The position numbers and the translations under genes were made by a program. Below the pieces are notes generated by a model. That model ran no database searches and had not been told where the DNA came from. It was given only the letters and a program-made list of their open reading frames with translations. From the NCBI RefSeq assembly GCF_025502585.1, contig NZ_CP106679.1:601001-665000 (forward strand): DNA of 64,000 nucleotides. The letters are read 5' to 3'. This stretch comes from Reichenbachiella agarivorans (lineage in GTDB: Bacteria; Bacteroidota; Bacteroidia; Cytophagales; Cyclobacteriaceae). Positions 35,999 to 47,150 of this stretch are shown one piece after another; within the stretch, counting starts at the first letter, position 1; every line of letters begins with the position of its first letter.

Positions 35999-36014
35999 TT
36001 TACCAAATGATAAA
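35999..36014. promoter_or_regulatory. Operator A1, before the first Crp/Fnr gene
   Basis: TTTACCAAATGATAAA, an imperfect palindrome of two 7-nt half-sites around 2 bp. Its half-sites TTTACCA and TTTATCA match the perfect site A2 between this gene and the next. Its centre is 41.5 bp from the start codon of the regulator. Confidence 0.7.
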
Positions 36015-36047
36015 TCACTAATATTTAGTTTTCGCCAACTTGCTACT

Positions 36048-36614
36048 ATGAAAGAATTGATAGCCTACATACTGCAATTTGGAAATCTCAATCAACAGCA
36101 AATTGACCTGATATTAAGTAAGTCGACAGCACTGAATTTGCAAAAGCACGAATACTTTTCAGAAGCGGGACGAACGCCCAAACAGGTTGGATTTGTGGTC
36201 GAAGGTGTCCTCCGCGGTTGCTACTACAATAACAAAGGAGAAGAAATTACCCGTTGTTTTATCAGCGAAAATAGTTTGGTTGTTGATTATCTCAATTTTG
36301 AAGCAGGCACTTCTTCTTCGGAATACTTACAGGCCTGTACAAATTGTACGCTCCTTGTGTTTTCTAAACAGCATTGGGAAGAACTATCCAAAATCATAGT
36401 GGAGTGGGATCCAATTAAAAATAAGATGGTACAATTATGCATGTATCAAAAATCCAGAAAAGGACCGGTGATCTCACAAGACGCCACTTCTCGTTATCTG
36501 GAATTTATGGAAAACTATCCCTCACTTATTAATCGGATTCCGTTGGTTTACATTGCTTCTTATCTAGGAGTTACTCAACAATCATTGAGCAGGATCAGAA
36601 ACAACATCCGTTAA
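36048..36614 (+). CDS. Crp/Fnr-family transcriptional regulator (cassette A)
   Basis: 188 residues: an N-terminal cyclic-nucleotide-binding-like beta-roll (about 15-115; EYFSEAGRTPKQVGFVVEGV) and a C-terminal helix-turn-helix (about 150-188; YIASYLGVTQQSLSRIRNNI). The Glu/Arg pair that binds cAMP in Crp and the N-terminal Cys set of Fnr are not evident, so the signal is unknown. It is clearly paralogous to the protein at 46529-47098. It is followed by a short-chain dehydrogenase, with the operators A1 and A2 before each gene, which suggests autoregulation and control of the neighbour. Confidence 0.88.
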   Translation: MKELIAYILQFGNLNQQQIDLILSKSTALNLQKHEYFSEAGRTPKQVGFVVEGVLRGCYYNNKGEEITRCFISENSLVVDYLNFEAGTSSSEYLQACTNCTLLVFSKQHWEELSKIIVEWDPIKNKMVQLCMYQKSRKGPVISQDATSRYLEFMENYPSLINRIPLVYIASYLGVTQQSLSRIRNNIR

Positions 36615-36620
36615 TCGCTT

Positions 36621-36636
36621 TTTACCATTTGGTAAA
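36621..36636. promoter_or_regulatory. Operator A2, before the cassette A dehydrogenase
   Basis: TTTACCATTTGGTAAA: half-sites TTTACCA and TGGTAAA are exact inverse complements around 2 bp. It is 7 nt after the regulator's stop codon and its centre is 29.5 bp upstream of a -7-like element. Confidence 0.78.
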
Positions 36637-36657
36637 CCGTTTCATTTTTAAACATTA

Positions 36658-36665
36658 AACCTTTG
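36658..36665 (+). promoter_or_regulatory. Candidate -7 element of the cassette A dehydrogenase
   Basis: AACCTTTG fits TAnnTTTG in all but the first base. No TTG lies at -33; instead operator A2 is centred 29.5 bp upstream, near -42 if transcription starts about 12 bp after the first base. That is the geometry of an activator-dependent (class II) promoter. Confidence 0.45.
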
Positions 36666-36692
36666 CTTTATTAATTTTAATAACTGAAAAAA

Positions 36693-37430
36693 ATGAAAAA
36701 AGCATTAATCACAGGAGCCAATAAAGGCATAGGTTTTGAGACAGCTAAACAATTATTACAAAAAGGATTTTATGTTTATCTCGGAAGTCGAAACTTAAAA
36801 AAGGGTTTAGAAGCAGTTGAACAATTACGATCCGAAGGTTTGACCCATGTAGAAGTCGTAGAATTAGATGTGACAGATGAAAACTCTGTAAAAACTGCTC
36901 GTGAAACAATCAGCAAGAAAACAGAAGCTTTGGATGTGCTCATTAACAATGCAGGGATCAACGGAGGCAGCCCATATACAGCACTGGAATCAAGCTCAGA
37001 TCAATTGATGACAACATTTGATACCAATGTATTTGGTGTAGCAAGAGTCACTCGGGCTTTTATGGACTTATTACGTAAATCGCCACAACCACGGATTGTA
37101 AACGTCAGTACCAGTGTAGGTTCTCTTTCGTTGCAAAGTGACCCGAACTGGGCAGCATATGAATATGCAAAATATGCGGTATATGGTGCCTCAAAAGCAG
37201 CATTGAATATGTACACTATCCATTTGGCTTACGAATTGCGAGAAACGACCTTTAAAGTAAATGCGGTTTGTCCAGGTTATACAAGTACTGATTTCACGTT
37301 TCATCATGGAAGAGAAGTAGAGGTGGCGGGAAATCGAATTGTAAAGTATGCATTTATTGATCAAGACGGGCCAACAGGCAAGTTCTTTAGCGAAGAAACC
37401 AATCCAGAAACGGGTGAAATTCCTTGGTAA
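36693..37430 (+). CDS. Short-chain dehydrogenase/reductase (cassette A)
   Basis: Classical SDR, 245 residues: the nucleotide-binding motif TGANKGIG at the N-terminus, NNAG near residue 90, the catalytic Ser in NVSTSVGS and the catalytic Tyr164/Lys168 in YGASK. It resembles carbonyl-reductase-like SDRs that use NADPH (Arg in GSRNLKKG after beta-2). Substrate unknown. It follows the Crp/Fnr-type gene with operator A2 between them. It converges on the SusD gene, with a shared terminator region. Confidence 0.9.
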   Translation: MKKALITGANKGIGFETAKQLLQKGFYVYLGSRNLKKGLEAVEQLRSEGLTHVEVVELDVTDENSVKTARETISKKTEALDVLINNAGINGGSPYTALESSSDQLMTTFDTNVFGVARVTRAFMDLLRKSPQPRIVNVSTSVGSLSLQSDPNWAAYEYAKYAVYGASKAALNMYTIHLAYELRETTFKVNAVCPGYTSTDFTFHHGREVEVAGNRIVKYAFIDQDGPTGKFFSEETNPETGEIPW

Positions 37431-37499
37431 CCTATAATCCACAATCCTTGCGAGACTATAAGTCTCTTTTTCCATCTGGCAACTATACAGCTGAAGATA

Positions 37500-37532
37500 C
37501 AAAAAAGAAGCGCTACCCAAGGATAGCGCTTC
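37500..37532 (-). terminator. Terminator after the susD-like gene
   Basis: A perfect 9-bp stem (37507-37515 with 37524-37532, arm GAAGCGCTA) with an 8-nt loop and a run of six T on the minus strand, 23 nt after the susD stop codon. Confidence 0.85.
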
Positions 37533-37554
37533 ACTACAATGAAACAGAATATTA

Positions 37555-39303
37555 TCAATAATCTTTGTTCTGAACAAAATCTTTGTTTACATCTAGCTCT
37601 GATTGTGGGATCGCAAATATTCTTTGGTAGGGCTTAGAAACTGGCTTGGCAGTGTAGGCATCTTCAAAAGTCCCAAAGCGGATCATCTGCTGTCTTCTCT
37701 CTCCCTCCCAGTACAGCTCATAGCTGATCTCGTTGTATAGCGTCTCTTCGTCCATGGTTGCTATTTCAGTCCCAAAGAATTGATTGCCATCTATGTCTAT
37801 GCTCCAACGTGAGGTTCTCAGTAGATTGATGTCGGCCATTGCGCCAGTCACATCACCTTTTCTGAACTTAGCCTCGGCACGCATGGTGTAGATACCTCCC
37901 AATCTGAAGAGTGGGATATTCACACCACTGGTACCGCGTCCGTTTTCTGCATCGTATTCTTGTTTGAATACCCTCACACCACGGTTGATTTGATCCTGAG
38001 AGAAAGCTGCGTCTCCGTCCACGTCAAAGTTCAACTCAGGCGTGAAATCCATCAACAAATCTGGCGTCTTCTCTGTGTACAAGGCCTGAACCAATACTCT
38101 AGAATTATCCAATGGATCCATTTCGAAAGCACCATCTGTGATCTTAGGCGCATATTGCTGACCTGCCTGAAATCCGCGGTTGAAATGGAAGATCCCTCCA
38201 AAAGGCAAACTCCCATCCGTACCGTCATTTCTATAGACCTCTCCACCATTGTTGGTGGTGTGCTTGTGAAATCTTGGATCATTCCTGTTGGCATCCCAAG
38301 TCGCATAATAATCAGGTGTTGTACAAGATGCATTCGACCCTCTGTTGTCGTTAGGATTGGCCTTTTGGTTTCGTCCCATGGACAAATAGGTGAAATCGTT
38401 TCGACCTGTGTTTCCTCCAGTGTTGCTTTGGATATAGGCCAAGATATGCTCCGAGTTATTGTTGTTGCTCACATCAAAAATTTCGAAATAATCAGCCTCC
38501 AAAGAGAAAGTTCCTGAGTTGATCAATAGATCAGTGTATTGGATCACCTTGTCCATGTTACCACTCCCTACAAAATCGAAGCTAGACGTGGCATTGTACC
38601 TGTCTTCATAGACAGCCTTGTTCAAGTAGATTTTTGCCAAAAATGCATACGCTGCTTCTTTGGTGAATCTACCAGAATCTGCCCCTCTCGTGCCATAATC
38701 TGCCAAATCTGGAAGAACCTCCTCGATCGTCTCGATGCAAATCTTGATCGCCTCCGTGCTGGTCAAGATCTGTGGTGCGTCCGCAAAATTCAAATTCAAT
38801 GGATCTCTGTAAGGCACTTGCCCAAACAAATCGACCAAGTTGAAAGTGTACCATGCCCACAGGGCTCTGGCTTCTGCGAGATATAAACTTGCATTTTCCA
38901 CCTTGCTGTCTTTGATGACATCAATCGCACTGGCCGCTTGTGCTATGGCACCATTGATCGTCCTCCAATTACCCTCTGGCACTACGCTAGTAGCGCTAAA
39001 TTTGAATTCGTGCAGCTCTTTCCACTTGCCACCGTCTCTCCAGTCTTCACCACGGACTGGCAGGAGAGCCTCGTCTGTCGTGAATTCTTGCAAAGCCCAA
39101 GTGCCGCCATAGTTGGCAAACATGTCTTTTTCTTTCGCATAAGTCGCCGACAGCAGAGATGCCTCGATTCCAGGCACTGTCTCGATATCGTCGGGGACGA
39201 TTTCATCTATCACTTGCTCCTCCAAATCGGTACAACTCGTCACGACCATGAGGAATGTCAATGCCCAAAGGACACTTATTCTATATATTTCTTTAACCTT
39301 CAT
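37555..39303 (-). CDS. SusD/RagB-family outer membrane lipoprotein
   Basis: Substrate-binding lipoprotein that forms the lid of a SusC-type channel. 582 residues. Lipoprotein signal MKVKEIYRISVLWALTFLMV then VTSC; TPR-rich SusD fold with LYLAEARALWAWYTFNLVDL and the C-terminal MRAEAKFRKGDVTGAMADIN and ELYWEGERRQQMIRFG, both typical. The ATG at 39303 is chosen because it begins the signal peptide. It lies 4 nt after the SusC gene and must act with it. No glycoside hydrolase lies nearby, so the substrate cannot be named. Confidence 0.94.
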   Translation of the reverse strand: MKVKEIYRISVLWALTFLMVVTSCTDLEEQVIDEIVPDDIETVPGIEASLLSATYAKEKDMFANYGGTWALQEFTTDEALLPVRGEDWRDGGKWKELHEFKFSATSVVPEGNWRTINGAIAQAASAIDVIKDSKVENASLYLAEARALWAWYTFNLVDLFGQVPYRDPLNLNFADAPQILTSTEAIKICIETIEEVLPDLADYGTRGADSGRFTKEAAYAFLAKIYLNKAVYEDRYNATSSFDFVGSGNMDKVIQYTDLLINSGTFSLEADYFEIFDVSNNNNSEHILAYIQSNTGGNTGRNDFTYLSMGRNQKANPNDNRGSNASCTTPDYYATWDANRNDPRFHKHTTNNGGEVYRNDGTDGSLPFGGIFHFNRGFQAGQQYAPKITDGAFEMDPLDNSRVLVQALYTEKTPDLLMDFTPELNFDVDGDAAFSQDQINRGVRVFKQEYDAENGRGTSGVNIPLFRLGGIYTMRAEAKFRKGDVTGAMADINLLRTSRWSIDIDGNQFFGTEIATMDEETLYNEISYELYWEGERRQQMIRFGTFEDAYTAKPVSKPYQRIFAIPQSELDVNKDFVQNKDY

Positions 39304-39307
39304 TTTT

Positions 39308-42300
39308 TTAGAATTTAATAGTTGCACCTAATAAATAACTTCTTGAACTAGGATAGCTGGCATAGTCCATACCCAAAGAAGAGTTGCCTCCTACGTTTTT
39401 GGTGGTATTGACTGATGGATCGTATCCTGAGTAATCGGTGATGGTCAATAGGTTTTGACCCGTCGCATATATGGTGAGTTGCTTCAACCACTTCACGTTA
39501 CCAGTATTGACTGTGTAACCAATTCTTAGATTGTTTAACCTCAAATAATCCGAGCTCTCCAAGTAATAATCAGAGACTCTCAAGGCATCATTGACAGACT
39601 GTCCTGAGTTCAACTCGTCTTTGGTCACGTTCTTACTTGACAGGAAGTTGGACATGTGATCGGTAGCCAATTTGGTATTGTTGAACAAATAAGCTCCCGA
39701 TTGACCTACGATAGACAAAGACAGGTCGATGTTCTTGTAACGAAATTGGGTATTGAAACCATAAGTAAAAGTTGGCAAAGCACTTTCAATGATTTTCTTC
39801 TCATCCGAGTAAATAGAAACCCCATTTTCATCAAAGCCTTGGTGCTCAAACAAGTTGAAAGAGCCCGCAGCATAACCGTTTTTGTAGATATTCACCGTCT
39901 CGCCTGATACACCTGATCCAGATACATTGCCAGAAAGAATCTCGGTCACAGGGAGATTTTTCACTTCATTGTGCAGGGTAGCTCCGTTGAAATCTGCCGC
40001 CCAAGTGAAGTTGTCAGTTTCTATGATTCTACTACCCAACATGAACTCCACACCTGTATTGACGATCTCACCGTCCATGTTCGTCCAGACGCTAGAGAAA
40101 CTAGGCTGGATAGCAGGCAAAAGCAGAATGGCGTCTGTGGTGGTCTTGTTGTAATAATCCAAACTACCATAGATCAAGCCGTTGAACAATTCGAAATCAA
40201 ACCCTAGGTCAAACTGAGCAACTACCTCCCACTTCAAATCTGGATTGGCTGTACGCGTATAAGTCACGCCATTCACTAAACCAGCACTTTCACCATTTAG
40301 GTAATAACCATTGCCCGAAGTAGTAGAGTAAGTTTCTTGGGTCACTTTGTTGGGTACCTCTTGGTTACCTGTTTGTCCCCAGCTCGATCTCAGTTTCAGA
40401 TTGTTCAAGACATCTGATCCTGCTAGAAATCCTTCTTCAGAGATATTCCATCCCAAAGCAAATGATGGGAAATAGCCATACTTGTTATTCTCCCCAAAAC
40501 GAGTAGAACCATCCGCCCTCATAGAAGCCGTCACCAAGTACTTGCCTCTGTAAGCATAATTGATTCTACCGAAGTAGGATTGTAACTCATTCACCTCTGC
40601 AAAACCCTTGGTCTCGATGGCTTCTTGATTGCCACCTACACTTGGGTTATTGGCGGGATCCACACTGTTGTCGTCTAGCTCTCTCAGACCAAAAGAAGTG
40701 CCTGACCTGTTGAATTTCTGATAAGAGAATCCTCCCAAAACATCCAGCTTAGAATTGTCTCCCAAATAAGTGTATGTGAGATAATGCTCCAATACATGGT
40801 TGAGGTTTTCATAGTTCTGCTGGTAATAAGCACCCGTAGATTCGATCTCCGTGGTATTCGGATAGAAAGTCGTGTTTCTCTCTGAGACTGCACGATCTAC
40901 ACCGTAGTTGAATTGGTATTCTAGGCCTTCAAAAATCCTGAATTTCGCCTCTATATTCCCTAAAACTCTTAGTGTCTTAGTTTGATCCTCATGAAAATCT
41001 AGGATGTAAAGTGGGTTGTAACTCCCCTCTGTATCAAAATCATAAAAATCACCATTGGCATCATACACTGGTCTGGTCGGGTTGGCCTTGAGCATGTGCG
41101 TGATCAACTCACCAGTAGCACCCGCATTGGCACTAGATGGTATGGCATTGTCGGTGGTTTGCGATGCAGTCAGGTTCACCTTCACTTTGAGGCGCTGATT
41201 GTCTAGGAAAGATTCCGTCACGTTGATACGACCAGAGAGTCTTTCGAAATCACTCTCCTTGACCACACCCTCTTGATCCATGTGACTGATAGAAGCAAAG
41301 TAATTCCCTGTCTCAGTTCCTTTAGAAAAAGACAAATTGTTGCTAGTCGTCATGGCCGTTCTGAATACTTCGTCTTGCCAATCTGTGTCAACGTTTGGAT
41401 CAAACACTTTATCAGGATTGTTGGCCGCATACTCCTTGGCGTCCAATAAATCCAACTTTTTGGCCACTTTAGAAAAACCAACATAGGTGTCATAGGTCAA
41501 GTTGGCTTCATCCTTTTTGCCACGCTTGGTGGTGATAATCACCACTCCATTGGATCCTCTGGCACCATAGATTGCAGCAGCGGATGCATCTTTCAATACA
41601 GAGATGGATTCGATGTCTGATGGATTCAAAAAGTTGAGCGGGTTTCTTGCTCTTGAGCTACCAATGCCACTATCTGCACCTTCGGGGCTTACGTTGCTGT
41701 TGCTCAATGGTACACCATCGACTACAAATAGCGGAGAACTACCACTGCGAATAGAACCTGCACCTCTGATCATGACATCTACTCCCGCGCCTGGCTCACC
41801 ACTAGAGTTGATCACTCGTACCCCTGGAGCTTTTCCTTGCAATAAGAGTTCTGGAGACGTGTTAATTCCCTCTCTGAAATGATCACTGTCAATTTGGTCA
41901 AGCGAACCTGTAGCGTCGGCTTTGGTAGTGGTACCATATCCAATCACTACGACTTCTTGTAGACTTTCCAAACTTGGGAACAGCTGTACCTTCATGTTGT
42001 TAGTGGCTGTCACTTCTTCTGGATCATACCCTATAAATGTGATGAGCAAGGTTTGACTCACACCTGATAGGTTGATGCTAAACTCTCCCTTGGCATTGGT
42101 CACCACTCCATTGGTCGTCCCCTTTTCTATGACATTGGCACCTGGTAGGGGCTCATTGTTTTCGTCCATGACACTACCCGTCACGACCTCCAGTACACCT
42201 AGCTGCTTGGTGCTATTTTGATTCTTTCTGACCAAAACCAACTTGTCTGCAATGGTAAAACTAAAATTAGCGTCCTTTGATAACTGATCTAAGATCTCAT

Positions 42301-42553
42301 TGAGCTGCTTGTTTTTTTGGACCACAGAGTATTTATTCTGATCTGATATTACATTTTCTCCGTAGCTAAACTTGTAGTCAGTCTGATTACTCAATTGAGA
42401 AAAAATCGTAACCAGTGTTGCGTTCTTGATTTCTAGGCTCACGCCAGATGATTCCGCCTGTGCAGCAGATGGCCAGACCATTTGTATTACAATCAGCATG
42501 AATAACAAGCATGCTGTTGCTTTTGATTTATAAAAAATTATATTTGAATACAT
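39308..42553 (-). CDS. SusC/RagA-family TonB-dependent transporter with STN domain
   Basis: Outer membrane TonB-dependent importer, 1081 residues. In order: signal peptide (to about residue 34, AQA), an STN domain (about 40-95), a carboxypeptidase-like beta-sandwich (about 118-200, GSVMDENNEPLPGANVIEKG), the plug (about 205-320, with GAGSIRSGSSPLFVVDGVPL and AAIYGARGSNGVVIITTKRG) and the beta barrel. The STN domain is the part that contacts a FecR-type anti-sigma factor, and such a gene lies directly upstream. It pairs with the SusD gene 4 nt downstream. Confidence 0.95.
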   Translation of the reverse strand: MYSNIIFYKSKATACLLFMLIVIQMVWPSAAQAESSGVSLEIKNATLVTIFSQLSNQTDYKFSYGENVISDQNKYSVVQKNKQLNEILDQLSKDANFSFTIADKLVLVRKNQNSTKQLGVLEVVTGSVMDENNEPLPGANVIEKGTTNGVVTNAKGEFSINLSGVSQTLLITFIGYDPEEVTATNNMKVQLFPSLESLQEVVVIGYGTTTKADATGSLDQIDSDHFREGINTSPELLLQGKAPGVRVINSSGEPGAGVDVMIRGAGSIRSGSSPLFVVDGVPLSNSNVSPEGADSGIGSSRARNPLNFLNPSDIESISVLKDASAAAIYGARGSNGVVIITTKRGKKDEANLTYDTYVGFSKVAKKLDLLDAKEYAANNPDKVFDPNVDTDWQDEVFRTAMTTSNNLSFSKGTETGNYFASISHMDQEGVVKESDFERLSGRINVTESFLDNQRLKVKVNLTASQTTDNAIPSSANAGATGELITHMLKANPTRPVYDANGDFYDFDTEGSYNPLYILDFHEDQTKTLRVLGNIEAKFRIFEGLEYQFNYGVDRAVSERNTTFYPNTTEIESTGAYYQQNYENLNHVLEHYLTYTYLGDNSKLDVLGGFSYQKFNRSGTSFGLRELDDNSVDPANNPSVGGNQEAIETKGFAEVNELQSYFGRINYAYRGKYLVTASMRADGSTRFGENNKYGYFPSFALGWNISEEGFLAGSDVLNNLKLRSSWGQTGNQEVPNKVTQETYSTTSGNGYYLNGESAGLVNGVTYTRTANPDLKWEVVAQFDLGFDFELFNGLIYGSLDYYNKTTTDAILLLPAIQPSFSSVWTNMDGEIVNTGVEFMLGSRIIETDNFTWAADFNGATLHNEVKNLPVTEILSGNVSGSGVSGETVNIYKNGYAAGSFNLFEHQGFDENGVSIYSDEKKIIESALPTFTYGFNTQFRYKNIDLSLSIVGQSGAYLFNNTKLATDHMSNFLSSKNVTKDELNSGQSVNDALRVSDYYLESSDYLRLNNLRIGYTVNTGNVKWLKQLTIYATGQNLLTITDYSGYDPSVNTTKNVGGNSSLGMDYASYPSSRSYLLGATIKF

Positions 42554-42591
42554 TATCTTAAGTATTTGTTTTTACAATGCTTTGATTTGAT

Positions 42592-42617
42592 ACCGTAGTT
42601 GTTGCACCAACTGCGGT
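42592..42617 (+). terminator. Plus-oriented terminator-like hairpin between fecR and susC
   Basis: A 10-bp stem with one G-U pair (42592-42601 with 42608-42617, arm ACCGTAGTTG), followed on the plus strand by TTTTTT. Genes on both sides are on the minus strand, so it would stop antisense transcription, or act as an RNA structure in the fecR-susC spacer. Confidence 0.5.
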
Positions 42618-42627
42618 TTTTTCTTGT

Positions 42628-43563
42628 CTATTTGATTGTTATTCTTCCGCCATATATTTCTATTTTTAGATTGCTAGTGATGTAATTCAATTGCTCAATC
42701 ACGCTGGTTAGCGTGGCTTTGTCTTGGATAAATACCGTCACTCTGGTATCCAATATTTGCTGATCTATCTTAGTAGATTTCACTCCGAATTTGTAATCCA
42801 ACACCCGCAGTACCTGATCCAATCTCACGTCTTTGAGTTCCAAGTCCTTTTTGTACCACTGGGTCAACCAAGTCTCAGTGGCAGTTCTTTTGCGGAGGAT
42901 GGCTGTTTGGTTTGAAAAATAAGCTTCTTCGTTGGGGAGTAGGTCGACACTCTCAGAGCGAGAAGCTACGTTGACTTTGCCCGATCGGACAGTCACCAAA
43001 CAATGCTGCTCGTCCATCTGTATGTTGAATGAAGTACCCAAAACTGTCGTCTTGATATCTCCAGAGGTAATAACGAAAGGCTTGTCAGGATTTTTGGCGA
43101 CCTCAAAGAAAGCAGAACCTCTCAGTAGAGTAATCGGTCTGGATCTGTCATTGAAACCTTTGTCATATGCAAAAGCTGAGTTTGCTCCTAGGTAGATCAT
43201 AGAACCATCCGCCATGAACACCGAATCCATCTGCGACCCAGTCTCTACCAGCACTGTGCGATCGCTATTACCTAGGAATAAAAAAGTAAAAGTCAGCAGC
43301 AAGGCAAGGCTCGCTGCAATCGACACGGCATATTGCCAGTGGTAAAGTGGTTTCACCTTCTGATCCTGCTCGATCTCACGGGTGATGTTTTGGAAGATGC
43401 GCTCAGACAGCTCTTCTTTGTCCCCCATCGTTTCGCTGTCCCAACTGTAATCTTGGTCATAAGAAGACGCAAAATTATCTAGTAGCTTTTTCTCATCAAC
43501 CGAACTCTTCTTGCTAAAATACTTGTCTATTAGGCTAGCTAATATGTGAGACCTCTTCTTCAT
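42628..43563 (-). CDS. FecR-family anti-sigma factor
   Basis: Inner-membrane anti-sigma/sigma-regulator, 311 residues. The cytoplasmic N-terminal part (1-75) binds the sigma factor, one membrane helix follows (about 76-97, VSIAASLALLLTFTFLFLG), then the periplasmic FecR domain (SMIYLGANSAFAYDKGF, ITLLRGSAFFEVAKNPDKPF) and a C-terminal STN-contacting domain (LKDVRLDQVLRVLDYKFGVK). It lies between the ECF sigma gene and the STN-bearing SusC gene, so it most likely relays substrate occupancy of that transporter. Confidence 0.93.
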   Translation of the reverse strand: MKKRSHILASLIDKYFSKKSSVDEKKLLDNFASSYDQDYSWDSETMGDKEELSERIFQNITREIEQDQKVKPLYHWQYAVSIAASLALLLTFTFLFLGNSDRTVLVETGSQMDSVFMADGSMIYLGANSAFAYDKGFNDRSRPITLLRGSAFFEVAKNPDKPFVITSGDIKTTVLGTSFNIQMDEQHCLVTVRSGKVNVASRSESVDLLPNEEAYFSNQTAILRKRTATETWLTQWYKKDLELKDVRLDQVLRVLDYKFGVKSTKIDQQILDTRVTVFIQDKATLTSVIEQLNYITSNLKIEIYGGRITIK

Positions 43564-43679
43564 ATTAAATCACTTATTCGAAGGAGAGTACCCTAGATGG
43601 CTACTTCGTACTATTCGCCGATATTATCAAAAGATCAACGAATCATTACCAAACAATAGAGAAAAATGCTTTGATTGAA

Positions 43680-44210
43680 TCAGAGATCGTTGAGATCGAA
43701 GCGCAATTGCTTCAGGGCAGAACTGAGCTGGTTCTTCACAGTCTGCTGGGAGATTTCCAGTTCCGTGGCGATTTGGTCTATGCTCAGATCATGGAGTTTA
43801 TTCATCAGAAAGATCTCTTTGCGCTTCTCAGGCAGCTTGTTGATGGAATCAAATACAGATTGGGACAGATCTGGATCAGTGACGGTTGCTGGATTCTCAA
43901 AAACGAAATCTTCGAACCTAGATTCCAAAACTTCTTTGGACAGCTTTTGATCCCTGTAGCTTTTAAACACTTGGTATTTAACAGCTTGAAACAAATAGGT
44001 GTCGAGTGTCTCTATTTCGATATTATCGATTTTCTTCCAAAGACTGACAAATATATCTTGGACGATATTCTGAGAGAGGTCTCTGTCGGCAGACATTTTG
44101 AAAGCATAAGCATACAGCCGCTCCCAATACCTGCGATAGATTGCCTCGAACGCTTTTTTGCTATCCTTTTCTAATAATTCTAATAGGTGTTGATCACTAG
44201 GGTAGCCCAT
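43680..44210 (-). CDS. ECF RNA polymerase sigma factor
   Basis: Extracytoplasmic-function sigma factor, 176 residues, of the FecI-like kind common in Bacteroidota. Region 2 includes FEAIYRRYWERLYAYAFKMS and DIFVSLWKK; region 4 is KLPEKRKEIFLMNKLHDLS and IATELEISQQTVKNQLSSAL. It lies 116 nt upstream of the FecR gene on the same strand. A strong hairpin with a T run sits just before its start codon. Confidence 0.94.
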   Translation of the reverse strand: MGYPSDQHLLELLEKDSKKAFEAIYRRYWERLYAYAFKMSADRDLSQNIVQDIFVSLWKKIDNIEIETLDTYLFQAVKYQVFKSYRDQKLSKEVLESRFEDFVFENPATVTDPDLSQSVFDSINKLPEKRKEIFLMNKLHDLSIDQIATELEISQQTVKNQLSSALKQLRFDLNDL

Positions 44211-44214
44211 ATCT

Positions 44215-44264
44215 AAAAACAGAGTTCAGATAAAATGTTGTCTCACAAATTTATCTGGACTCTG
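44215..44264 (-). terminator. Terminator-like hairpin directly before the ECF sigma gene
   Basis: A 15-bp stem with one G-U pair (44220-44234 with 44250-44264, arm CAGAGTTCAGATAAA) with a 15-nt loop, followed on the minus strand by TTTTT. The T run ends within 10 nt of the sigma factor's start codon. It may end the upstream AraC transcript, or act as an attenuator on the sigma gene's own leader. Confidence 0.65.
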
Positions 44265-44354
44265 CTTCATGGCGTTTAAGCCAAAATTATGTTTACATGA
44301 AATTATATCTTCGTAATGATCTGTTCGCTAGTTCTGATCACTACATTTACATCA

Positions 44355-45164
44355 TTAAGAAGTAGGATTATATTGATCAAACCCCAACTCGTAAGCGATC
44401 TCCTTCAAACTATTGTTGGTACTGAGGATTGCTCTTTTTATTTCCAAAACCACATACTCGTCTATGAAATGTTTGGCAGTATTCAAGGTAAAATTTTGGA
44501 CGACCGCATTCAATTGCTTGGCAGAGACGGACATGTATTCCGCATAGTCCTTCACATTTCTCGTGTCCATGTACCTCTCTTCTACCAAGTTCTTGAATTG
44601 AAAGAACAGTGGGTACTGCTCTGTGTTACGTTTCGTAGAAATAGCTAAGTGCGACACCCTCTCCAATTTCAACAGATACAGCTCCAGCATTTTGGCTATT
44701 ATATTCCTTTGGGCATAGGTATTTTCATAATTCAGTTCCTGTGCGATCAGTGCCAAAAATGATTCATTGAAATTACTACCCTCCACCATTGGATCTGAAA
44801 TATGATAGTTGTAGAGGTGCGAAATAAAGTCAATGGTAGACTTAGAGAAAAACTTCAAAACAAAATCTTCTGTAAAAACGACAAGGTAACCGTCGTAGCT
44901 TAGATTTTCTTGAAAAGCATGCACTTGCCCTTTAGCGATTTTCAATACAGACCCTTTCTTTAGTAAGTAGTTCTCTAGATCGACTTGATGCATTCCCTCT
45001 CCTTCCGTAACAATCAACAAGGCAAAGAAGGTAATTCGGTGAGGTTTCAGTGGATCATGGTTAGGATTTTCTTCTACGCGCTCGAATAATTCAGATATCC
45101 TCAAAAATTCAATATCTGTGGTCTTTTCGCTACTATCGAATGATATGTTTGGGATATTATTCAC
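44355..45164 (-). CDS. AraC-family regulator, truncated at the C-terminus
   Basis: 269 residues. An N-terminal cupin-like sensing domain (about 1-165) is followed by the first helix-turn-helix (MSVSAKQLNAVVQNFTLNTA, then EIKRAILS) and the first helix of the second one (SLKEIAYELGFDQ). The protein then ends at YNPTS and stop, before the second recognition helix (usually YFSRFFKK) and the tail. The other two frames do not restore that segment. It may therefore be non-functional or altered in DNA binding. The start is a GTG. It lies upstream of the ECF sigma gene, but no link is shown. Confidence 0.8.
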   Translation of the reverse strand: MNNIPNISFDSSEKTTDIEFLRISELFERVEENPNHDPLKPHRITFFALLIVTEGEGMHQVDLENYLLKKGSVLKIAKGQVHAFQENLSYDGYLVVFTEDFVLKFFSKSTIDFISHLYNYHISDPMVEGSNFNESFLALIAQELNYENTYAQRNIIAKMLELYLLKLERVSHLAISTKRNTEQYPLFFQFKNLVEERYMDTRNVKDYAEYMSVSAKQLNAVVQNFTLNTAKHFIDEYVVLEIKRAILSTNNSLKEIAYELGFDQYNPTS

Positions 45165-45518
45165 TGACCTCTACTTGACCTTTTTTGCTCATCTCCAGTA
45201 CCCATAATTGCCCCCTATATTTGATTTACTATCTCCAATCACACTTAATACCAAATGAAAGCTGGTTGTTTTAAGTGTTCCTGCGGAACACTTAAAACAT
45301 TGCAATGAAAAACAATGTCTCAGGTACGGTTATGGCAGATCATTACTATATCCAACTAACCTTACAGTACAATTTATTGAACTACAAAAATACCTCAAGC
45401 TTTTAAAACCGCTCTTATGATTCTATTAGTCTTTCAGTTGTTTCAAATAATCAGATTACAAATCTTATGATAGTAGCACGACTTTGCGAAAGTCTAACAA
45501 CGAGATTTGTATCCTTAT
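45165..45518. other. Intergenic stretch with a long hairpin
   Basis: 354 nt between the truncated AraC gene and the cassette B dehydrogenase. It contains a perfect 15-bp hairpin (45267-45299), listed separately. No gene, promoter consensus or RNA gene was recognised in the rest. Confidence 0.5.
45267..45299. repeat. Perfect 15-bp inverted repeat with a 3-nt loop
   Basis: TGTTTTAAGTGTTCC and its exact inverse complement flank TGC. Neither side has a T run, so it is not a simple intrinsic terminator. It might be a MITE-like end, a protein site or a processing hairpin. Confidence 0.7.
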
Positions 45519-46454
45519 TTACCGCAGTACAATAGACATATCTTCTTGTCTCATATTGAGTAGTTCTAAAGAAGAATTCCAAAGCTCTGTCTGATACGAT
45601 TTGTTGTAAGAATCATCCGAAGAATTAATTGGCTTTTCACCTTCAAAGTATTTCCCTCTGATGCTTCTATACTTTTCGGAATAAGCAAGATTGGCCAGAC
45701 GCCTCCCTGAGTTTTTAGCGGTATTTACATTCGGCTTTAGGTAGGTAAGTATTGGAAAAATGTTCTTCCATAGGAATTGCATAAATGAAGGGTAAGTTCT
45801 TGCAAGACCTGTCCCTGGAACCATCCCTGGGTCAAATGCATTGATACGCATACTGGTCTCTGATAGCATTTCCTGTAGTTTATAAACTGTGAGAATATTA
45901 CAGAGTTTGGATGTGGAATACCTCCGTTCGCCATTGATTTTGTCAGTATCACCATTCTCCTTTGGGTAGGCTAGCGATTTGGCATTTTGAAAAATAGGTA
46001 GGGTGATGGGTGTTTTTTGTCTGGGATCGTGCACACCACTGGCTGTAAAAACAATACTTCCGTTTTTTTCAATAAAAGGCAAGAGCAATAGGCTTAGGTA
46101 AAGGGGTGCAATATGATTAACACCAAAAGTAATTTCAAACCCATCTTTTGTGTATTGCATCTTTCCGATATTCTGAATACCTGCATTGTTGATTAAAGCA
46201 ACAATTTCATTCGATTCAAGAGTTGAAAAGGCCGTTTTAAAATCTCTGATTGACTGTAAAGAAGCTAAGTCAAGTGACATACAAATTAGATTTTCATGAC
46301 CTGTTATTTGCTTGATCTTCCTGACAGTCTCATGTCCCGCATCTAGGCTTCTGCATGTCAGAATTATTTGCTCATGAGGGGCTATTTTGGCCATTTGGAT
46401 GGCACATTCATACCCGATACCGCTAGTCGCTCCTGTGATTATTATTGATTTCAT
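45519..46454 (-). CDS. Short-chain dehydrogenase/reductase (cassette B)
   Basis: SDR of 311 residues, of the retinol-dehydrogenase/WW-oxidoreductase-like type. It has TGATSGIG at residues 7-14, NNAG at 89-92, the catalytic Ser in FTASGVHD and the Tyr179/Lys183 pair in YSTSK. The C-terminal extension after 240 is typical of that subgroup. The substrate is unknown. It follows the cassette B Crp/Fnr-type gene on the minus strand with operator B2 between them. It is not a close copy of the cassette A dehydrogenase. Confidence 0.88.
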   Translation of the reverse strand: MKSIIITGATSGIGYECAIQMAKIAPHEQIILTCRSLDAGHETVRKIKQITGHENLICMSLDLASLQSIRDFKTAFSTLESNEIVALINNAGIQNIGKMQYTKDGFEITFGVNHIAPLYLSLLLLPFIEKNGSIVFTASGVHDPRQKTPITLPIFQNAKSLAYPKENGDTDKINGERRYSTSKLCNILTVYKLQEMLSETSMRINAFDPGMVPGTGLARTYPSFMQFLWKNIFPILTYLKPNVNTAKNSGRRLANLAYSEKYRSIRGKYFEGEKPINSSDDSYNKSYQTELWNSSLELLNMRQEDMSIVLR

Positions 46455-46476
46455 TTTTTTGTTTTTATGTATGCTA

Positions 46477-46484
46477 CAAACTTG
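46477..46484 (-). promoter_or_regulatory. Candidate -7 element of the cassette B dehydrogenase
   Basis: CAAGTTTG (46484..46477) fits TAnnTTTG in all but the first base, with no TTG at -33. Operator B2 is centred exactly 29.5 bp upstream, the same spacing as in cassette A. Confidence 0.45.
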
Positions 46485-46505
46485 TCACAGCGAAAAACAA
46501 AATCA

Positions 46506-46521
46506 CTTGTCATTTGGCAAA
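46506..46521. promoter_or_regulatory. Operator B2, before the cassette B dehydrogenase
   Basis: CTTGTCATTTGGCAAA: half-sites CTTGTCA and TTTGCCA around 2 bp. A further TTGTCA half-site occurs at 46482-46487. It lies between the regulator's stop codon and the dehydrogenase start. Confidence 0.65.
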
Positions 46522-46528
46522 TAGCACG

Positions 46529-47098
46529 CTACCTAATACTTCTTCTGATTCGACTCAAGGAAGACTGGGTAATACCTAAATAGGAAGCCAAGTAAGACAA
46601 TGGTACTTTATTAGCAAGGGCGGGGAATTTTTCAAGGAAAGCAAGATACTTGCTAGTAGCATCTTCGGATAGCATTGGACTTAATTTATTGACCTTTTCG
46701 ATAAGGGCTCTCTCTGTGATTTTAGCAATGATACCATCCCAAGGAATAATGGTAGATGAAAGCTCCTCCCAAGCTTCTGTCGTAAATATTAGAAGCTTAC
46801 AAGTTGATACGGCTTGGACATATTCGGATGAAGGAATTTTTTGATTGTAGCTATTGATGTCAACAGCAAAATTATGCTCCTCAATAAAATATTTTGTGAT
46901 CTCATCTCCCTTGCTGTTGTAATAACAGACGCGCAAAATGCCTTCGAGTATAAATGCAATTCGCTTAGGAGTTTTTCCAGCTTCGGAGAAATACTCATCC
47001 TTCTTCAACTCCAAGAAGGTTGTTTTCCTTGAAATTAAGTCAGCCTGCTGTTGATTGAGTTGACCAAACTGTAACAAATAATTGATTAGCGATTCCAT
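46529..47098 (-). CDS. Crp/Fnr-family transcriptional regulator (cassette B)
   Basis: 189 residues, clearly paralogous to the protein at 36048-36614: both have an N-terminal LLQFG/ILQFG segment, EYFSEAG[RK]TPK, ATS[RK]YL and SYLG[VI]TQ. The beta-roll spans about 15-115. The helix-turn-helix is SYLASYLGITQSSLSRIRRS. Its recognition helix reads TQSSLSRIRR where cassette A has TQQSLSRIRN. The ligand is unknown. The dehydrogenase follows, and the operators B1 and B2 precede the two genes. Confidence 0.88.
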   Translation of the reverse strand: MESLINYLLQFGQLNQQQADLISRKTTFLELKKDEYFSEAGKTPKRIAFILEGILRVCYYNSKGDEITKYFIEEHNFAVDINSYNQKIPSSEYVQAVSTCKLLIFTTEAWEELSSTIIPWDGIIAKITERALIEKVNKLSPMLSEDATSKYLAFLEKFPALANKVPLSYLASYLGITQSSLSRIRRSIR

Positions 47099-47103
47099 TG
47101 GAA

Positions 47104-47111
47104 CAAAAATG
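47104..47111 (-). promoter_or_regulatory. Candidate -7 element of the cassette B regulator
   Basis: CATTTTTG (47111..47104) fits TAnnTTTG in all but the first base. Operator B1 is centred 29.5 bp upstream, as at the two dehydrogenase genes. Only 5 nt separate it from the ATG, so the mRNA would be leaderless or nearly so. Confidence 0.4.
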
Positions 47112-47130
47112 TTTGTTAAAAATCAATGAT

Positions 47131-47150
47131 TTTTTGTCATATGACAAAAA
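47131..47150. promoter_or_regulatory. Operator B1, before the cassette B regulator
   Basis: TTTTTGTCATATGACAAAAA is a perfect 20-bp palindrome. Its core half-sites TTTGTCA match those of B2. Its centre is 42.5 bp from the regulator's ATG. Confidence 0.78.

Follow-up and report, generated by a model that had tools for sequence, protein, structure and literature searches.

How can two related transcription regulators encoded in one genome keep their target promoters apart? The question is raised by a 64,000-nucleotide stretch of the Reichenbachiella agarivorans genome (NZ_CP106679.1, positions 601,001 to 665,000; hereafter the window), which holds two cassettes, A and B, each with a Crp/Fnr-type regulator gene followed by a short-chain dehydrogenase (SDR) gene, and with one 16-bp palindrome ahead of each of the four genes (Table 1). 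A preliminary description had proposed that these cassettes are a duplicated autoregulatory unit in which the DNA specificity diverged, so that the two circuits do not cross-talk. Both regulator-SDR pairs and all four palindromes are found as it described, and the half-sites and recognition helices that it gave (TQQSLSRIR in A, TQSSLSRIR in B) agree with the sequence. Half-site position 4 is A throughout the operators of cassette A and G throughout those of cassette B. The two regulators share 54% identity; the dehydrogenases, which had been described as not being close copies, are only 24% identical. The regulators belong to a known family, and the specificity switch between them, as judged from sequence, is real and unusually clean; most likely they form autoregulated activator cassettes.

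Covariation of residue 178 with the operator base

Homologous regulators were collected from 39 relatives, a scan of genome contigs, 395 class genomes, 291 order genomes and 395 phylum genomes, in draws that overlap, and were supplemented from some further stretches; the contig scan relied on a pair of peptide patterns, and 80 of the 125 loci that it detected were retained. The resulting 205 regulator records comprised 191 distinct sequences, from which we kept 169, and 150 of these have a palindromic operator. The 22 regulators that were dropped had less than 40% identity, a misfit to the helix motif or fewer than 180 amino acids. At the equivalent of residue 178 of regulator A, the 169 regulators have Ser in 103 cases, Gln in 61, Tyr in two, and Pro, His and Thr in one each. 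When the majority base of the operator is compared with this residue in the 150 regulators, Gln goes with A (56/56) and Ser with G (92/92), one Pro goes with A and one Thr with G, and there are zero exceptions. The residue has the highest mutual information with the operator base of any column (0.958 bit, the whole operator entropy) and predicts 150 of 150 cases, while the other columns among the best 12 listed predict at most 144. Under a looser site rule that does not require symmetry, Gln-type sites have A in both halves in 97 of 97 cases, and the 173 Ser-type sites divide into 164 with GG, eight with AG, one with GT and none with AA. The covariation of the Q/S residue with the A/G base, which the preliminary description had suggested looking for in an alignment of many homologues, held in these 150 regulators and strongly supports its proposal that the two regulators came to differ in DNA specificity through this residue and the base paired with it.

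A few sites and proteins at the edges of this set may be listed separately. The A half is always the upstream one in the eight mixed Ser-type sites (L036, L087, L109, L113, L114, L122, L123 and L189). For one Gln-type regulator (L125) there is an additional distant site at -270, beyond the counted range, in which one of the halves is of G type. Among distant paralogues, Tyr occurs with a G operator in L289 (TTTGCCAAAAGGCAAA; the same place as L207) and in L292 (TTTGCCATATGGCAAC), and L291 has Ala at the switch residue, again with a G operator (TTTGACATTTGTCAAA); no operator was found for the further Tyr cases L208, L290 and L296. These cases are too few to extend the code.

Promoter geometry and the proposed circuit

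Spacing was measured at sites within -52 and +12, a range that takes in 113 of the 118 regulator sites and 136 of the 142 sites ahead of target genes. With the five farther sites left out, the distance from operator start to regulator ATG is 48-50 bases in the 113 regulator promoters, and exactly 49 in 84 of them. At offset 37-42, counted from where the operator begins, a '.A..TT' box is present in 108 of the 113 regulator promoters and 135 of the 136 target promoters; its form is '.A..TTTG' in 128 of the 136 target promoters, and mostly '.A..TTG[CT]' (46) or '.A..TTTC' (27) in the regulator promoters. For Flavobacterium psychrophilum, excerpts of PMC9723704 place the motif TAnnTTTG and its variant TAnnTTGY at -12 to -5 of mapped starts and describe only 5.5% of mRNAs as leaderless. 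With the box assumed to have that same position here, the operator centre would lie at about -41.5 and the regulator ATG within 1 nt of +1. The predicted +1 would be the A of the ATG at 36048 for regulator A and one base before the ATG (47099, minus strand) for regulator B, and the regulator mRNAs would therefore be leaderless or nearly so; for SDR A and SDR B the predicted starts are 36670 (plus) and 46472 (minus). On the same assumption, the distance between operator and box fits a class II activation geometry in which the operator overlaps the -35/-33 element.

Our preferred explanation, which we hold to be highly probable, is that A and B are two-promoter autoregulated activator cassettes with a specificity switch at residue 178. 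Each regulator would bind palindromes of the same type at its own promoter and at the promoter of the next gene, the SDR, making a closed two-promoter circuit. Since the centre of the operator would fall some 41.5 bp ahead of the predicted transcription start, at the place of the -33 element, the regulator would most likely be a class II activator, and both promoters would be activated on sensing a signal that is probably not cyclic AMP (cAMP). Residue 178 of A, which is second in the recognition helix, would determine the operator base that is fifth from the dyad axis: Gln would read A, and Ser, or another residue in single cases, would go with G, which is possibly read by the invariant Arg182 (Arg185 of Crp).

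The same circuit could instead be run by repressors that cover the promoter and are released by ligand. Autoregulation next to a single target gene is common among repressors, and many enzyme-regulator pairs are ligand-released; the operator does overlap the -33 place, and TTG is found at -28 in 26 of 136 target promoters. However, TTG at exactly -33 is nearly absent (three of 113 regulator and one of 136 target promoters), and the operator distance fits class II activators at both promoters, so we regard repression as unlikely, though as the strongest competitor of activation.

Regulator and target promoters also differ from each other: across 249 sites in relatives, the -7 boxes read mostly TAnCTT[TG]C in the former and.AnnTTTG in the latter. 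The box of the regulator promoters resembles the F. psychrophilum motif SM5, TAnnTTGY (in excerpts of PMC9723704), and perhaps points to another sigma factor or a weaker promoter.

Family, fold and probable base contacts

Pfam model PF00027, a cyclic-nucleotide-binding-type barrel, matches regulators A and B at 30.3 and 31.9 bits (cut-off 27.5). The structural model of regulator A (mean predicted local distance difference test score, pLDDT, 92.3) has helices at residues 166-173 and 177-187, the last of which ends the protein, and its best Foldseek matches include CRP (4i02_D, E 2.7e-11 over 188 columns), NtcA, 3dn7 and FNR. Although neither regulator matches a Pfam HTH_Crp model at E 0.1, the helix-turn-helix is present in the model. 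Having both the N-terminal barrel and the C-terminal helix-turn-helix, the regulators are members of the Crp/Fnr superfamily. They lack the N-terminal cysteine cluster that carries the iron-sulphur centre of the oxygen sensor Fnr, as neither A nor B has a Cys among its first 55 residues. Arg82 of the cAMP pocket has no counterpart in the profile alignment, which gives Ser-Ser against Arg-Ser in CRP, and the pocket region reads TSSSEY in A and IPSSEY in B. Because this Arg is not kept, the sensed signal is unlikely to be cAMP.

The register of the recognition helix was read by eye: we take GCSRETVGR of Crp to align with GVTQQSLSR, which places Gln178 at Glu181 and Arg182 at Arg185, and the A/G operator base, fifth from the dyad axis, corresponds to G7 of the Crp half-site. 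Gln-adenine is a classical residue-base pairing, and with Ser at 178 the G may be read by Arg182. Altered-specificity mutants at Glu181 of Crp, reportedly obtained by Ebright and co-workers, change the preference at the same base position from G:C to A:T; those mutants were made in the laboratory, whereas here the switch is natural, recurs and is matched by genomic operators. The regulators are like E. coli Crp/Fnr in fold and in operator register, and would also share with them the second recognition-helix residue as base reader and the class II position, but their chain does not extend beyond the recognition helix and Crp Arg82 is not kept. The helix reads TQ[Q/S]SLSR where Crp has SRETVGR, and the half-site is TTT[A/G]YCA where that of Crp is TGTGA.

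In excerpts of the study of the Crp/Fnr DNA-binding domain by Krishnaswamy and Seshasayee (2025; PMC12531629), the residues of Crp that make base-specific contacts are given as Arg180, Glu181 and Arg185 and are described as highly conserved family-wide, whereas the regulators studied here have other residues in place of Arg180 and Glu181; the string 'bacteroid' does not occur in the main text of that paper. The closest solved sequence (profile E 3.1e-31) and a close fold match is 3dn7, the cyclic nucleotide binding regulatory protein of Cytophaga hutchinsonii, but its helix reads TPEYLSEIR and the identity is 26% in the Foldseek alignment of chain A. Residue-base correlations are also described in excerpts of covariation studies of GntR (PMC4494728), IclR (PMC8222616) and MerR (PMC5045206), which are other families with other folds. 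No published account of the paired-regulator switch was found in literature searches, which covered titles and abstract starts and had most subscription journals outside their coverage.

Ancestry of the cassettes and recurrence of the switch

A tree was built from 70 thinned rows, all with an operator, after leaving the recognition helix out of the alignment, with 200 bootstrap trees. Regulators A and B fall into different clades of this tree; the clade of A includes other orders (e.g. Tenacibaculum L040 and Olivibacter L042), and that of B reaches into further families within the order (L193 of G691 and Dyadobacter L118). Seven genomes of the same genus were searched, and in the two with both regulators (G002 and G007) A and B are about 576 kb and 152 kb apart. 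The separate clades and the wide spacing in relatives rule out a recent local duplication. The earlier proposal of a duplicated unit is supported as regards paralogous autoregulatory cassettes, with a duplication that lies far back: A and B are old paralogues on opposite sides of the specificity switch.

If the A/G difference were a matter of shared ancestry only, with residue and operator lacking any causal link, one would point to the clustering of Gln and Ser rows (eight changes of residue 178 against a shuffled mean of about 23.5), to the well-supported (starred) branches, which force only four changes, and to the very long branches of three rows. Yet the number of changes stays at 7-8 in the bootstraps, the Gln-type rows form a single clade in 0% of the 200 trees, and residue and operator base coincide in 70 of 70 rows, including the four starred independent pairs, so that each independent pair shows operator and residue changing together. 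Seven changes, two of them on starred branches, were counted on a quick tree that included all rows. The lower predictive power of the other listed columns and the location of the residue at a base-contact position of Crp (in excerpts of PMC12531629) also speak against ancestry as the sole cause, which we consider very improbable.

Several loci have unusual arrangements. G211 has a head-to-tail pair of Ser-type regulator genes (L122 and L131). In L035 (G028), a regulator frame that is 74% identical to A over the first 160 residues contains a stop codon, and A-type palindromes are found both before and after this frame. In L107, a 45-amino acid frame (start near 290) that is like a regulator start has its own A-type palindrome and lies ahead of a full regulator gene.

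Operators in the window and in whole genomes

When two mismatches are allowed, the G-type pattern has nine matches in the window against a shuffled mean of 1.78, a count reached in none of 100 shuffles, and the A-type pattern has five against 1.82, reached in four of 100. The A-type counts taken alone are only moderately unusual; the strong evidence for operators is their position, with a constant spacing ahead of genes that is kept in relatives. The 4.47 Mb genome was scanned with a joint pattern, TTTRYCA-N2-TGRYAAA, and with the reversed pattern as control. Exact matches are found at five places, three in the cassettes and two within other genes, which are susD-like and arginyl-tRNA-synthetase-like as named from their translations. 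Allowing one mismatch raises the number to 34 places, compared to 12 for the control, eight of the 34 falling outside reading frames of at least 110 amino acids. An in-phase '.A..TT' box, judged by eye on either strand, accompanies the four cassette sites and none of the other 30 places, which is the outcome of the genome-wide scan for both operator types that the preliminary description had called for. At this stringency the predicted targets of each regulator are two, its own gene and its SDR, and a large regulon in this genome is ruled out by the lack of further in-phase sites. The least probable alternative, that another, global factor binds the palindromes and the link to the regulators is accidental, could appeal to the single exact sites in the class, which mostly have no regulator within 1.5 kb (present at five of 30 loci, namely L013, L271, L279, L283 and L284, and at nine of 18), but it has to face the restriction of in-phase sites to the cassettes in the source genome and the loci where two exact sites occur as a pair, about 620-740 bp apart: all 12 of these (10 distinct places) have a regulator between the sites with a residue matching the site type, L219 and L283 each having one mixed site.

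Two search strategies were set aside. Single sites were discarded as a marker of regulators, since across the class a lone match usually lacks a regulator of this kind beside it. A half-site scan with TTTYRCA, which has a pyrimidine at position 4, gave many matches in some genomes, probably belonging to other factors, and was not used.

Cross-talk and insulation

Regulators with at least 45% identity were compiled by hand into a table of 64 genomes, two of which then had none. Multiple regulators are present in 22 of the 64: 15 with Gln and Ser types, three with Gln only (two QQ, one QQQ), three with Ser only (two SS, one SSS) and one QQST. This tally leans towards mixed pairs, an excess that is no test of insulation because the pairs are inherited together. 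In G438, two Gln-type regulators with similar operators coexist, and cross-talk is to be expected in such cases because the operators are alike. The earlier claim that the two circuits do not cross-talk agrees with this genome, which has no in-phase site outside the cassettes at up to one mismatch, but it does not hold universally, given the one-type genomes and the operators with mixed half-sites; insulation of the two circuits is plausible. Exact matches to the joint pattern number 80, compared to five for the control, when summed over 12 of the 15 genomes of the Gln+Ser kind, and because some of these fall outside the cassettes, other targets may exist in such genomes.

In genome G347, contig C1 contains at least five exact copies of TTTGCCAAATGGCAAA that are not located at the two regulators of this genome, which may reflect a repeat or a regulon of larger size.

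Several results weigh against activator cassettes with a clean switch at residue 178. No operator was recognized for 19 of the 169 regulators, the eight mixed sites among the 173 of Ser type carry A in one half, and six of the 22 multi-regulator genomes hold a single type. L180, which has 44% identity and was among the dropped regulators outside the 169, combines Pro with TTTCACA half-sites, against Pro-A in L051, and falls outside the simple residue-base rule. The predicted start sites rest on mapping in a species from a different order of the phylum, and the TTG at -28 of some target promoters is perhaps a displaced -33 element. Only four independent switches are well supported, and a sign test on four pairs is unable to reach 0.05; with long, unsure branches in three tree rows, even the full range of 4-8 pairs is a small number.

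The helix of L180 reads KQPSLSRVR, a misfit to the motif that kept it out of the counted set, and its palindrome, TTTCACA-N2-TGTGAAA, sits after its gene, perhaps representing a third specificity.

Downstream enzymes and wider meaning

Model PF00106 (adh_short) scores 156.2 bits for SDR A and 71.5 for SDR B (cut-off 26.6), and both proteins belong to the SDR superfamily. The best NCBIfam matches of SDR B, oxidoreductase PRK06197 and protochlorophyllide reductase, are both under the curated cut-offs. A downstream open reading frame was found for all but 10 of the 169 regulators. Because the same 245-amino acid SDR family stands downstream of both regulator types (67 Ser and 28 Gln), the enzyme does not explain the base. 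Other downstream groups are a 287-amino acid SDR (22 Gln, one Pro), the SDR-B type (10 Ser), aldo/keto reductases (eight Ser, two Gln) and an HD-domain protein (four Ser).

A broader and more tentative idea, to which we give rather less than even credence, is that these cassettes are widespread natural orthogonal mini-circuits. One scaffold would serve swappable enzymes (SDRs of several families, aldo/keto reductases and the HD-domain protein), selection for insulation between paralogues of one genome would repeatedly toggle the residue at helix position 2 together with one base per half-site, and the regulator mRNA would be leaderless, its start codon fixed by the position of the activator. 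The cassettes would offer a natural test of how paralogous regulators escape from cross-talk through one residue and one base per half-site, with repeated switches. Their operators can be read from the genome at a constant distance and are here predicted from sequence for a group of Bacteroidota regulators; this makes target annotation of such regulators feasible and may provide insulated parts for laboratory circuits.

Cassette coordinates and neighbouring genes

Table 1. Positions of cassettes A and B within the window
Feature	Position	Strand	Basis
Operator A1, TTTACCAAATGATAAA, putative autoregulatory site of regulator A	35999..36014	+	Sequence; homologous sites in relatives
Putative -7 box of regulator A promoter, CAACTTGC	36036..36043	+	Inferred; box position from excerpts of PMC9723704
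Regulator A, Crp/Fnr-type, 188 amino acids, Gln178 at the E. coli Crp Glu181 position	36048..36614	+	
Operator A2, TTTACCATTTGGTAAA, upstream of SDR A	36621..36636	+	Sequence, genome scan
Putative -7 box of SDR A promoter, AACCTTTG	36658..36665	+	Inferred
SDR A, short-chain dehydrogenase, 245 amino acids	36693..37430	+	
Operator B1, TTTGTCATATGACAAA, putative autoregulatory site of regulator B	47133..47148	-	Sequence, genome scan
Putative -7 box of regulator B promoter, CATTTTTG	47104..47111	-	Inferred
Regulator B, Crp/Fnr-type, 189 amino acids, Ser where A has Gln178	46529..47098	-	
Operator B2, TTTGCCAAATGACAAG (minus-strand reading), upstream of SDR B	46506..46521	-	Sequence, genome scan
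Putative -7 box of SDR B promoter, CAAGTTTG	46477..46484	-	Inferred
SDR B, 311 amino acids	45519..46454	-	

Between the cassettes (37555-44210, minus strand) lie SusD-like, SusC/TonB-receptor-like, FecR-like and ECF-sigma-like genes, named from their translations. A gene for an AraC-type regulator (PF12833, PF02311) adjoins cassette B at 44355-45164 on the minus strand.

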